From Solobacterium sp. (lineage in GTDB: Bacteria > Bacillota_I > Bacilli_A > Erysipelotrichales > Erysipelotrichaceae), in assembly GCA_017469885.1 (NCBI GenBank), contig JAFUFO010000042.1:1-36091 (forward strand): DNA of 36,091 nucleotides. Reading direction: 5' to 3'. Below, one piece after another: positions 8,884-12,992 of this stretch. The translations under genes and the position numbers were made by a program. The notes beneath the pieces are model-generated. The model was not told the origin of the DNA and did not search any database. It worked only from the letters and a program-made list of their open reading frames with translations. Every line of letters starts with the position of its first letter. Position 1 is the stretch's first letter.

Positions 8884-8897
8884 GGAATCTGTTTTTT
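8871..8897 (+). terminator. Terminator of the Na/Pi-Nudix operon
   Basis: GATTCCTCA pairs with TGAGGAATC (8871-8889) and is followed by GTTTTTT. The left arm lies inside the last codons of the Nudix gene. Confidence 0.85.
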
Positions 8898-8988
8898 CAT
8901 GCGGAGAAGTCCGCTTCATCCCGTATAATGAGAACGCAGAAAGCCGGTTTTCCGGCATGATAATACAGCAGGAAAGGATTTAACCATT

Positions 8989-10158
8989 ATGAGCAGATAC
9001 GACACTGATTTCAGCAAGATGCGGTTCAGCACCCGTGCCGTCAAGGCCGGTGAAGGACCTGATCCCGTTACCCGGGCGATGAATACCCCGATTTATGAAA
9101 CCTCCACCTACGGCTATGAAACCGCCGAGCAGTATGATGAGATGCTGGCGAGAGGCGCAGAGTGGGAACCGGATCTGTATATTTACAGCCGCACCACCAA
9201 CCCGACCACAAACGCCCTGGAGAAAAAGGTCATGGCGCTTGAGCACGCCGAAGATGCGGTTATTACTGCCTGCGGTATGGCAGCCATCTCCAATGCCCTG
9301 CTTTCCAATCTGAATGCGGGCGATCATGTCATCTGTTCGGATGACACCTTCATGTGCACTTCCAGCATGTTTGCGGACATCCTGCCGTCCAAGGGAATTG
9401 AAACTTCCCGCGTTGAGATCCTCGATCTTTCCAACATTGAAAAAGCAATGCGTCCGAATACCAAAGTGGTCTATCTCGAGGCGCTTTCCAACCCGCAGCT
9501 GAAGCTTGCGGATATTCCGGCAATTGCGGAACTTGCGCACGCCCATGGCTGCAAGTTCATCGTCGACAACACCTTCCTCTCCCCGTGTGTCATGCGTCCG
9601 CTTGACTGGGGCGCAGACATCGTCGTCCACTCCGGCACCAAGTATTATGTCGGTCACGGTGATGCATTATGCGGCATCGTTGCCGGAAGCCGGGAAGACA
9701 TCAACCGGGTGCGCTACTACTATGACAACCTCGGTTCCCATATCAGTCCGTATGACGCATGGCTTGCGCTGCGTAGTGTACGGACCATGCCGCTGCGTCT
9801 GAAGCAGCAGTCCGAAAATGCCATGACCCTTGCGAAATGGTTTGAGGCAAGACCGGAAGTCGACTTCGTCACCTATCCGGGTCTGGAATCCCACCACCAG
9901 CATGAGATTGCGAAGAAGCTTTTCGTCAATGGCAACTTCGGCGGCATGCTGTGTGTGCATCTCAAGGGCGGCTATGAAGAAATGTGCAGATTCTGCGATG
10001 CCACAAAGATTCCGCCGATCGCGACCAGCCTTGGTGATGTGGTAACACTGATGTTCCCGAAGAAGGCATACAACAACCTGATCCGCATCTCCTGCGGATG
10101 CGAAGATGTCAACGATCTGATCGAAGACTTCGAACAGGCGTTTGCGCAGTGCAAGTAA
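8989..10158 (+). CDS. Trans-sulfuration family PLP enzyme (methionine gamma-lyase / cystathionine synthase-lyase like)
   Basis: A 389-residue Cys/Met-metabolism PLP enzyme. Seen: YSRTTNPT (66-73, phosphate-binding from the neighbouring subunit), CGMAAIS (95-101), VDNTF (192-196, Asp193 contacting the PLP nitrogen), and HSGTKYYVGHGD (214-225), with Lys218 as the Schiff-base lysine. The family includes cystathionine gamma-synthase, cystathionine gamma-lyase, O-acetylhomoserine sulfhydrylase and methionine gamma-lyase, which cannot be separated with confidence by eye. AGGAAAGG lies upstream. It is a single-gene unit between two terminators with no other sulfur-metabolism gene beside it. Confidence 0.88.
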   Translation: MSRYDTDFSKMRFSTRAVKAGEGPDPVTRAMNTPIYETSTYGYETAEQYDEMLARGAEWEPDLYIYSRTTNPTTNALEKKVMALEHAEDAVITACGMAAISNALLSNLNAGDHVICSDDTFMCTSSMFADILPSKGIETSRVEILDLSNIEKAMRPNTKVVYLEALSNPQLKLADIPAIAELAHAHGCKFIVDNTFLSPCVMRPLDWGADIVVHSGTKYYVGHGDALCGIVAGSREDINRVRYYYDNLGSHISPYDAWLALRSVRTMPLRLKQQSENAMTLAKWFEARPEVDFVTYPGLESHHQHEIAKKLFVNGNFGGMLCVHLKGGYEEMCRFCDATKIPPIATSLGDVVTLMFPKKAYNNLIRISCGCEDVNDLIEDFEQAFAQCK

Positions 10159-10247: not shown

Positions 10248-11264
10248 TCAAGTTTGTTTTGCCTGCGTTTCGTCTTTAATGGATGCCAGAAACCCCGGTG
10301 TTACTTTAACAACCTTCAGAACAAAAGACTCATCAACCCCTTCCTGAAGCATTGCCCGTACAACATCTGCCTTGTTTTTGTTTATGCCTTCTTCCCGGCC
10401 TTTTTCCAGACCTTTTTCCAGACCTTTCTCCAGGCCTTTTTTCAGGCCCTTTTTCAAGCCTTCCTCCCATGCTTCTTCACTAAGCTTCCGTTTCAGATTC
10501 TCGAACTGTCTTGCGTCACCCTCTGGATCCAGCAGCATTCCCACAATCCTCCCCTGTTCTGCCAGAATGCAGTCCCGTGTCACATAGTCCTCCGGAAGCT
10601 CCCGGATTGTCTGTTCGATTGCCTCTCTCAGACTTATCCCCTGTTCTTTCTTCCTGCGGATGGTTGATACGATCCATGTGTATTCTTCCAGCGGCTTACA
10701 CCTGGCCTGCATTGCTTTGTTCTTCCCGGAATTGATATTTATGACATGAACAACCACTTCCAGGTCATATGATTTACCAATTCCTTCATCACGATTATTC
10801 GTATCATAATTATTGCTTAATTTCAACACGGTGTTCTCTGAAACCTCTTTGTTAATCCCGTTGTAAAACACGTAGAACTTCGGACGCGGGATTTTCAAAA
10901 GCGCAGTGTGATATACCGCTTTCTTATCGATGATTCCCGCGATCTGCTTCGCCGCATATTCCAGCATCCGCACCGGCATATTCGGTGTCCATGTTGACTG
11001 GTGCTCAAAAAAGCTCAGAACACTTCCATAGAGAAAGACCACGTCTTCCTGTACTTTGAGAAAGAGGATATTGTTGGAATCGTGCAATTCCAGTTTCTCC
11101 GGATCCCGGTAGTCCGTACCGTTAATCGCATTGAACAGTGACAGTGTCCATTCCTTATGGTCCTTGTTTCCAAACAGGAAGCGAAACAGGCTGTCCTTGT
11201 ATTGGCGGTTTGATGTCATGGATTTTTGTGCAGTTGGTTTCTTTTTTCTTTTTCGCTGTTTCAT
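10248..11264 (-). CDS. Rpn-family PD-(D/E)XK nuclease / putative transposase
   Basis: A 338-residue protein of the Rpn (recombination-promoting nuclease, formerly transposase_31) family. After a basic N-terminus comes the typical opening SNRQYKDSLFRFLFGNKD, then FLYGSVLSFFEHQST and RMLEYAAKQI in the nuclease fold. The C-terminal tail holds the family's Lys-Gly repeats (KKGLKKGLEKGLEKGLEKG). In E. coli these proteins are DNA endonucleases that stimulate RecA-independent recombination, and some relatives act in phage defence. The start at 11264 is set by AGGAGG ten bases upstream; the frame stays open for 69 more codons but that stretch holds a terminator. It is a lone gene without other transposon parts. 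Confidence 0.82.
   Translation of the reverse strand: MKQRKRKKKPTAQKSMTSNRQYKDSLFRFLFGNKDHKEWTLSLFNAINGTDYRDPEKLELHDSNNILFLKVQEDVVFLYGSVLSFFEHQSTWTPNMPVRMLEYAAKQIAGIIDKKAVYHTALLKIPRPKFYVFYNGINKEVSENTVLKLSNNYDTNNRDEGIGKSYDLEVVVHVININSGKNKAMQARCKPLEEYTWIVSTIRRKKEQGISLREAIEQTIRELPEDYVTRDCILAEQGRIVGMLLDPEGDARQFENLKRKLSEEAWEEGLKKGLKKGLEKGLEKGLEKGREEGINKNKADVVRAMLQEGVDESFVLKVVKVTPGFLASIKDETQAKQT
10391..10470 (-). repeat. 12-base tandem repeats encoding Lys-Gly tail of the Rpn protein
   Basis: About six imperfect copies of a 12-base unit, read on the plus strand as CAGACCTTTTTC-like and encoding four residues such as GLEK. Because the unit is a multiple of three, gain or loss of copies keeps frame. 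This tail is typical of the family, so the repeats are expected, but copy number may vary between strains. Confidence 0.75.
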
Positions 11265-11354
11265 CTGAAGATTACCTCCTGTACTTCTTATTGCCTTCCA
11301 GTTTGAAAATCCCCTGCCTTCGGTTAAAACTTTTTTTATTTTTTCCGTCATATG

Positions 11355-11377
11355 AAAAACCTGCCGTTCCCGGCAGG
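11355..11377 (-). terminator. Hairpin terminator between SseB-like and Rpn genes
   Basis: On the minus strand CCTGCC, a 6-base loop and GGCAGG are followed by TTTTTC. It lies about 90 bases before the Rpn start. It most likely ends the SseB-like transcript; alternatively it is an attenuator in the Rpn leader. Confidence 0.7.
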
Positions 11378-11595
11378 CTCCATTTGAATTCAACATCATT
11401 GCTGGTTTTTCCAACTGTTTCAGAACATCCTCCGGAATCTTTGCCATGATATTTTTCCGGATTTTTTCCATTACTTCAGGGCTATTAATTATATCCAGTT
11501 TTCTTCTCCTTTGCCTATATTATATACGTCGTTCCGGTTCAAAACCCATGGTTGTAAGGGGTACTTTAACACTTCTTTCCTTCTGTAAGCTGTTC

Positions 11596-12405: not shown

Positions 12406-12500
12406 CGGTATTGTCCTCCCTGAGCTGTACACATCCGTTATTCAGATTCATTGTAATGCTTTTCCTCTTCCCCATTCATGGATGAAGGGACGCAATTCCG

Positions 12501-12506
12501 TATAAT
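12501..12506 (+). promoter_or_regulatory. -10 box for the small-peptide genes
   Basis: A perfect TATAAT about 40 bases before the 61-codon gene. No good -35 match is seen at 17 bases, so an activator or an extended context may be involved. Confidence 0.45.
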
Positions 12507-12545
12507 GAATATATCCGATACAACCTTTTGACAAGGAGGACAATC

Positions 12546-12731
12546 ATGGAAAAGGAAATGATCAGAGATGAATCACTGCTTGAAGTAAACGGCGGCAGCT
12601 GGACCCTCGAAACACTTACACCGGAAGAACGTGAAGAATTCATGAGGGTCAATCAGGACCTGACCGACAACTGGAACTATGTCGCATACAACGATTTCAT
12701 CCGGCGGATGAATGCGAAATACGGTGAATAA
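12546..12731 (+). CDS. Small peptide with double-glycine-leader-like N-terminus
   Basis: A 61-residue peptide of no recognised family. It begins after an ideal AAGGAGG-6-ATG. Residues 8-17 (DESLLEVNGG) look like the leader end of peptides cleaved after Gly-Gly by C39-peptidase transporters. The putative mature part (SWTLETLTPEERE onward, 44 residues) is rich in acidic and aromatic residues (two Trp, two Tyr), which is unlike most cationic bacteriocins. No peptidase-transporter or immunity gene is recognisable in the window. It is followed 32 bases later by a second small gene. An alternative is a plain cytoplasmic protein in which NGG is coincidental. A TTG start at 12528 was rejected. Confidence 0.7.
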   Translation: MEKEMIRDESLLEVNGGSWTLETLTPEEREEFMRVNQDLTDNWNYVAYNDFIRRMNAKYGE

Positions 12732-12763
12732 TTCCGGAACAGTCCTGGGAGAAGGAAACGGAT

Positions 12764-12940
12764 ATGGCGATCGCTGCGTACAAATCATTATCTGACGAGC
12801 AAATGAAGCAGCTGGGGTACAGTCACGATGCGGAAGGTCTCATAGCCTGCCTTGCGTCCGAAACAATCGAAGACAAACGATACGAAGCCACACCGGAAGA
12901 ATTCGAACAGCTTGCCAGCTACATCCGCAGTCATTACTGA
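12764..12940 (+). CDS. Hypothetical 58-residue protein
   Basis: An acidic 58-residue protein beginning MAIAAYKSLSDEQMKQLG and ending ASYIRSHY. GGGAGAAGGA stands upstream of the ATG and a terminator closes the gene 26 bases after the stop. No family is recognised. Short helix-prone segments are separated by TPEEFEQL, which resembles the TPEEREEF segment of the 61-residue neighbour, hinting at a related fold or shared origin. It is probably co-transcribed with that neighbour and could be a second peptide or a small partner/immunity protein (inference). Confidence 0.65.
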   Translation: MAIAAYKSLSDEQMKQLGYSHDAEGLIACLASETIEDKRYEATPEEFEQLASYIRSHY

Positions 12941-12965
12941 GCTCTGCAGTAAACGTTATTACCGG

Positions 12966-12992
12966 GGCGATTCTGACAGAATCGCCTTTTCC
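12966..12992 (+). terminator. Terminator of the small-peptide operon
   Basis: GGCGATTCT, a 3-base loop and AGAATCGCC (12966-12986) are followed by TTTTCC. Together with 12501 it delimits a two-gene transcript of about 470 bases. Confidence 0.8.

Follow-up and report, generated by a model that had tools for sequence, protein, structure and literature searches.

A probable Gly-Gly-cleaved secreted mini-protein from Solobacterium and its candidate place in a scattered, co-regulated gene set

The window (the whole stretch of 36,091 nucleotides of Solobacterium sp. DNA that was analysed) contains two short genes in tandem on the forward strand, flanked by an SseB-like gene and the gene for ribosomal protein L1, both on the opposite strand. 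Gene 1 lies at 12546–12731 (61 aa), behind the ribosome binding site AAGGAGG (12533–12539, forward strand), and gene 2 at 12764–12940 (58 aa), in agreement with the original prediction. Gene 1 codes for MEKEMIRDESLLEVNGG and then for a tail of 44 residues; as predicted, DESLLEVNGG is encoded and the tail is acidic (pI 4.5). The locus raises the question of whether these genes specify a secreted peptide with its partner or a small cytosolic pair, and, if a product is secreted, which exporter and which promoter serve it. Judged from the sequence, gene 1 very probably encodes a small protein that is cut after Gly-Gly and exported. The explanation that we favour for the locus as a whole, with good confidence, is that of a secreted 44-residue mini-protein whose exporter is encoded elsewhere in the genome and which belongs to a co-regulated set of genes.

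Gene 1, its relatives and its leader

By its codons and its substitutions gene 1 is a real gene under purifying selection. Its coding score of 0.631 is strong compared with a median of 0.463 for true 58-codon pieces, and dN lies far under dS between species (0.11 versus 2.22 for the window and L011). A genus subset of 60 genomes was first searched with the single gene 1 protein, and a family-wide profile search of 272 genomes (E up to 0.01) gave matches in 14. Full-length relatives (E below 1e-20) amounted to 12 genes in 11 of the 272 family genomes, nine from the genus of the window and two from another; the remaining profile matches were leader-only or weak, and a weak match in G178 (E 0.0019, residues 20–55, in a 407-aa frame) was left out of the family count. 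A Dialister candidate (L016) was dropped since the match covered 25 residues within a long coding frame. The named relatives are metagenome-assembled genomes labelled Solobacterium or Erysipelotrichaceae, several of them from cattle, reindeer, goat and sheep. The flanking genes vary across most gene 1 loci; gene 1 is thus not bound to the neighbourhood of rplA. Phage or plasmid cargo was rejected because gene 1 had no match among viral contigs or plasmids. Neither a Pfam family nor, up to E 10, an NCBIfam model matched gene 1.

The leader comprises residues 1–17 (12546–12596, forward strand) and ends in Gly16-Gly17. This Gly-Gly pair is invariant in 12 of the 12 family sequences compared, and homologues lacking it, which the original prediction had named as evidence against a leader, were absent from these relatives. 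All 12 sequences also carry hydrophobic residues at position −12 (I/L), −7 (L/I) and −4 (V/I), while position −15 (Lys3) is not hydrophobic. Two papers describe −4, −7, −12 and the Gly-Gly pair as the positions read by LahT and other C39 exporters (PMC6363468; PMC7018657). The same type of leader was found on unrelated cores, zinc-ribbon-like in two loci (L034, L045) and other small proteins in three (L036, L042, L044), and a GG-leader gene lies within 1 kb of 4 of the 12 family genes (L008, L029, L034, L035). Gene 1 thus has the characteristics of double-glycine leader peptides, with glycines at −2/−1, the hydrophobic pattern and recurrence of the leader on unrelated cores, which together with the exporter described below strongly supports the predicted double-glycine leader and orphan secreted peptide.

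With a profile of the 17 leader positions nine places were identified in the genome of the window itself (E up to 10), and for four of these E was below 0.002. Eight of the places, among them gene 1, read as GG-leader genes, and the one remaining, on contig C23, has no readable leader. A further GG-leader frame, with Cys motifs and with no ATG in view, is located on C15. Taken together, the scattered small proteins with GG leaders seem, from sequence, to have a leader type and an exporter type in common and, in some of the genomes, a promoter type as well.

Several related loci deserve separate mention. Between L014 (5001–5183) and L007 (1501–1683) or L033 (1501–1677) the DNA of the leader hardly differs (dS about 0.1) while the core is synonymously saturated; genes may exchange their leaders, or a constraint on DNA or RNA may keep these alike. 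The GG-leader genes of L034 (48–724) and L045 (8111–8443) encode zinc-ribbon-like cores, which match Lar-type and other zinc ribbons at sub-threshold scores, and their products are possibly secreted metal-binding mini-proteins. Several GG-leader genes are clustered beside the gene 1 relative in L045 (6655–7953, genome G010), the first of them with an apparent Nif11-type leader as judged by eye.

Exporters and a shared promoter motif

No exporter adjoins gene 1. The original prediction had proposed a search for a C39-type peptidase transporter in the genome, and one was found on another contig. The genome contains two NHLP-type loci (TIGR03796 and TIGR03797), on contigs C49 (exporter A) and C17 (exporter B), and only the TIGR03796 match on C49 passed the curated cut-off. 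Of 143 positions in the C39 domain of exporter A, 106 (74%) are identical in the LahT domain (6mpz), and the catalytic Cys is kept, as would be expected of the exporter of a double-glycine leader peptide. Exporter B should not cut by the known mechanism because Asn replaces the catalytic Cys and Tyr replaces the His. It was rejected as the processing enzyme of gene 1 on account of this Asn and since it was not found in three gene 1-bearing draft genomes (G016, G066, G069). A second NHLP-type exporter with ENG for ECG in its C39 domain was seen in all four loci read (L022, 7923–10181; L065, 2174–4357; L066, 10543–12723; L067, 2465–4645). From its sequence this Asn-type exporter seems to be intact but to lack peptidase activity; in L065 it has a GG-leader gene about 1.7 kb upstream.

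Across the genus, matches to PF03412 at E up to 1e-4 were detected in 23 of 70 genomes, and 19 of these were strong (E below 1e-20); four short weak matches were dropped from the count of C39 exporters. A strong match was present in all nine genus genomes with full-length gene 1 and in 10 of the 61 without gene 1 (Fisher p 1.4e-6, a value that is too good, as the genomes are related). It is highly likely that the NHLP-type exporter on C49 uses its C39 domain to bind the leader, removes it by a cut after Gly17 and carries the core out of the cell.

Upstream of the GG-leader genes we observed a motif consisting of G(T/A)GGA, 15–17 bases and CGTATA. We take CGTATA to be an ECF-type −10 element, and liken it to those of Bacillus sigma-W promoters. 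The copy before gene 1 reads ATGGA-N16-CGTATA (12478–12504, forward strand), and a scan for an ordinary sigma-70 promoter at the locus was empty. In its loose form (GGA-N15-17-C(G/A)TATA) the motif stands upstream of 10 of 33 GG-leader genes and of 2 of 312 other genes, a count that is biased because the motif was derived from these same GG-leader genes. The two other genes correspond to each other: they are the PLP-enzyme gene of the window and its counterpart in L010. In the window the motif lies within 8889–8988, before this Cys/Met-metabolism enzyme gene (8989–10158). The window also encodes, at 10248–11471, a protein of 407 aa that matches nothing in Pfam and has a series of GLKKGLEKGLEKG-like repeats close to its end.

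The stricter pattern GTGGA-N15-17-CGTATA occurred at 37 sites in four genomes (G000, G049, G021, G028), compared with 9 for the reversed pattern. Thirty of the 37 sites came with loci; the readable sites amounted to 9 of 15 in G021 and 7 of 7 in G028, the two genomes whose GG-leader genes played no part in defining the motif. In these two genomes 8 of the 16 sites precede a GG-leader gene by a fixed rule, and ten do by eye, so that only half of the readable sites precede such a gene by the rule. Random positions in the same 30 loci preceded a GG-leader gene in 106 of 3600 cases (2.9%; binomial 6e-9). The motif is missing from 4 of the 8 GG-leader genes of the window's own genome. A shared ECF-like promoter before the genes, as an ECF-controlled regulon would have, is nevertheless what these searches recovered.

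A gene for a sigma-70-family factor of the ECF type (TIGR02937, 99 bits against a cut-off of 42.9) stands before exporter A in the window's own genome, G000, and by shared sequence the same gene stands before exporter A in G032, G049, G021, G001 and G028. No such gene was seen just upstream of exporter A at ten loci, within the stretches examined, some of which were short. Directly upstream of the sigma gene itself, read in the direction of that gene, only loose matches to the motif turned up, in L070. The motif is carried by the gene divergent from the sigma gene in G000, G049 and, by eye, G001, and this divergent gene codes for a long GG-type leader of its own. The long-leader family (ADFSxE...ELFxKPxPV...GG) was observed in L021 (10327–10656), L073 (1473–1802), L083 (4754–5005), L108 and L115; in three genomes its gene is the one divergent from the sigma gene and has the ECF-like promoter. 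In genomes without a sigma gene beside the exporter (G010, G044, G016, G066) the motif preceded none of 10 GG-leader genes, compared with 8 of 12 in the sigma-bearing genomes (p 0.0015, a hand count in which the sigma gene was judged beside the exporter only). In G049 and G000 the motif also precedes genes with no GG leader, for a lipoprotein (L090/L095) and a membrane protein (L086/L114), which are possible further members of the regulon. Control of gene 1 by an ECF sigma factor is what we infer from these sequences, and the sigma factor encoded in the operon of exporter A probably drives the set of GG-leader genes.

Gene 2 and the downstream hairpin

The original prediction treated the two genes as a unit closed by a terminator. 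A hairpin followed by TTTT, at 12964–12986 and common to the sister locus L010, is a probable terminator; the stretch around it folds at z −2.0, and a pattern scan did not list it. The two-gene unit of the original prediction does not hold as a conserved unit. In L010 gene 1 is present at 95% identity and a stretch of about 213–215 bases holding gene 2 (12736–12950, forward strand) is missing; the two loci do not tell which state is ancestral. Gene 2 was not found in the other 69 of the 70 genus genomes, and the proposed search for homologues of both peptides side by side did not place it next to gene 1 in the relatives. The segment of the type TPEE(R/F)E is indeed present in both proteins, but BLASTP gave no alignment between them even at E 100. 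On these three grounds (one genome of 70, a sister locus without gene 2 and no alignment) a conserved pair of gene 1 and gene 2 was rejected.

Gene 2 lacks a GG leader. Its coding score of 0.201 is about the 5th percentile of true pieces (0.199), and its frame is the best of its own six. No match to it was detected in viral contigs or plasmids. A family search returned one weak relative, L052, at E 0.0227 per genome, which could arise by chance over 272 genomes. L064, a protein of 89 residues whose leader is MNDKINKYALSDDDMSRVDGG, was recovered (E 8.8e-10) by a profile that included L052. The core-only profile of L064 and L052 gave gene 2 a score of 21.1 bits, whereas 2000 shuffles and other small ORFs reached at most 6.6 and 5.9. 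We accepted L052 as a relative because this score lies far above the shuffles, and the same score identifies gene 2 as a leaderless relative of a different GG-leader core. The L052 relative (1404–1686) extends over two frames, the core lying in the frame after that of the leader-like start MSDHTTNSISDELLSK, which reflects either a real break or an assembly error. The structural model of gene 2 contains four helices (mean pLDDT 80), and a folded product is conceivable. Since gene 2 has no leader, weak codon use and a distribution of one genome only, it is likelier to be a relic or cytosolic stray than a partner of gene 1. On balance we regard it as a leaderless gene that is specific to its lineage and related to another family of GG-leader cores; it is probably a relic whose product is not exported.

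The core, its possible role and known systems

The gene 1 core (44 residues, 12597–12728, forward strand) contains no Cys and has a computed unmodified mass of 5446.9 Da, pI of 4.5, charge of −4.5 and GRAVY of −1.1, which makes it acidic and hydrophilic. AlphaFold predicts a two-helix hairpin with helices at residues 26–42 and 45–59 (block pLDDT 87–91 over residues 21–60) and a loose leader (block pLDDT 49 and 66). No significant PDB match to a known fold was obtained, the top Foldseek match having E 4.5. Sequence matches in the PDB to two Bacillus-type proteins (residues 16–40, E 0.0023 and 0.0028) and to calmodulin-like proteins (E 0.07 or worse) were treated as chance.

After export the core would take the form of a soluble, acidic two-helix hairpin. 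What it does outside the cell is the weakest step of the proposed mechanism: the leading candidate, held tentatively, is a folded protein that acts on neighbouring cells as a signal or binding effector, and a membrane-permeabilising bacteriocin is a less likely one. The latter would be a class II bacteriocin of the one- or two-peptide kind, exported in the same way and permeabilising neighbours, with gene 2 as the partner or immunity protein. The GG leader, the C39 exporter and a small gene downstream whose relatives are also GG-leader proteins all suit it, but as computed and modelled the core is unlike a membrane-permeabilising class II peptide, being hydrophilic, predicted to fold and strongly conserved, not diversifying, and it matches no bacteriocin family in Pfam or NCBIfam. 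Gene 2, without a GG leader and absent from all other genus genomes, does not supply the two adjacent GG-leader peptides of class IIb. The class IIb core motif is given as AxxxA, GxxxG or SxxxS in PMC13289728, and the gene 1 core, read by eye, has no motif of the GxxxG type. We consider a bacteriocin unlikely. Less likely still is a RiPP precursor, the core of which would be chemically modified before export. According to PMC2887384, NHLP-type exporters were first tied to modified precursors, and according to PMC6363468 LahT serves LahA peptides with Nif11-type leaders; however, the gene 1 core has no Cys and is predicted to be a folded hairpin, and no modification family appeared in a Pfam scan of 10 proteins encoded in the window or at the exporter loci.

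The original prediction also allowed for a small cytosolic protein in which the GG motif is not a cleavage site, and it had named an N-terminal half as conserved as the rest as evidence against cleavage. Mean pairwise identity in the family is indeed equal over residues 1–17 and 18–61 (0.62 versus 0.64), which formally speaks against cleavage and, together with the distance to the exporter, for a cytosolic protein. We hold this equality to be outweighed because the same leader recurs on unrelated cores. The clustering with other GG-leader genes, the co-occurrence with the exporter and the predicted contrast of loose leader and ordered core also count against a cytosolic product, which is very improbable. 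A toxin–antitoxin or other obligate pair, suggested by two short tandem genes ahead of one hairpin, is refuted as a conserved gene pair by the distribution of gene 2 (a single genus genome out of 70, and not the sister, whose gene 1 is 95% identical) and can be practically dismissed.

The secreted mini-protein that we favour may be part of something larger. We give about even chances to a dedicated secretory regulon in Solobacterium-like gut bacteria, in which an ECF sigma factor encoded next to a LahT-like exporter would switch on many scattered genes for folded, unmodified mini-proteins (helical hairpins, zinc ribbons and others) with only the short GG leader and the promoter type in common. 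If true, such a regulon would be a secreted protein repertoire and not a bacteriocin cluster. Orphan GG peptides are described in PMC7018657 as hard to assign to an exporter. Here exporter, leader and promoter motif together make the assignment testable, and with the motif all members could be catalogued in genomes whose GG-leader genes are short, dispersed and readily overlooked. The resemblance of the cores to folded mini-proteins, and not to pore formers, raises the question of their role in the rumen or gut community. Among the titles and abstract openings of the open-licence literature on NHLP and GG leaders, rumen bacteriocins, orphan GG peptides, ECF sigma factors and export, and Solobacterium bacteriocins, none described such a set, and the main text of the Hungate1000 bacteriocin paper (PMC13289728), in the part covered, has no Erysipelotrich-, Solobacterium, Kandleria or Sharpea.

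Known systems resemble the proposed one in part. Class II bacteriocins have the short GG leader and C39 export in common with gene 1, but differ from its acidic, hydrophilic, conserved core, which matches none of their families. The NHLP and Nif11 families (PMC2887384) share the TIGR03796/TIGR03797 exporters, the GG site and the possibility of numerous precursors per genome, whereas gene 1, with a leader of 17 residues and no NCBIfam match at E up to 10, has neither the long nitrile-hydratase-like nor the Nif11-like leader. LahT/LahA of a Lachnospiraceae isolate (PMC6363468) is close to exporter A in its C39 domain (the 106 of 143 identical positions to 6mpz), and there too several precursors with diverse cores have GG leaders of the same −4/−7/−12 pattern. 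The LahA precursors have Nif11-type leaders and are clustered, whereas gene 1 has its short leader, lies far from the exporter and encodes a core without Cys. The pneumococcal rtg peptides and RtgAB (PMC7018657) likewise form a co-regulated set of GG peptides with one exporter; their regulation is Rgg/SHP-like and they occupy a single locus, whereas the genes described here are scattered and share an ECF-like promoter.
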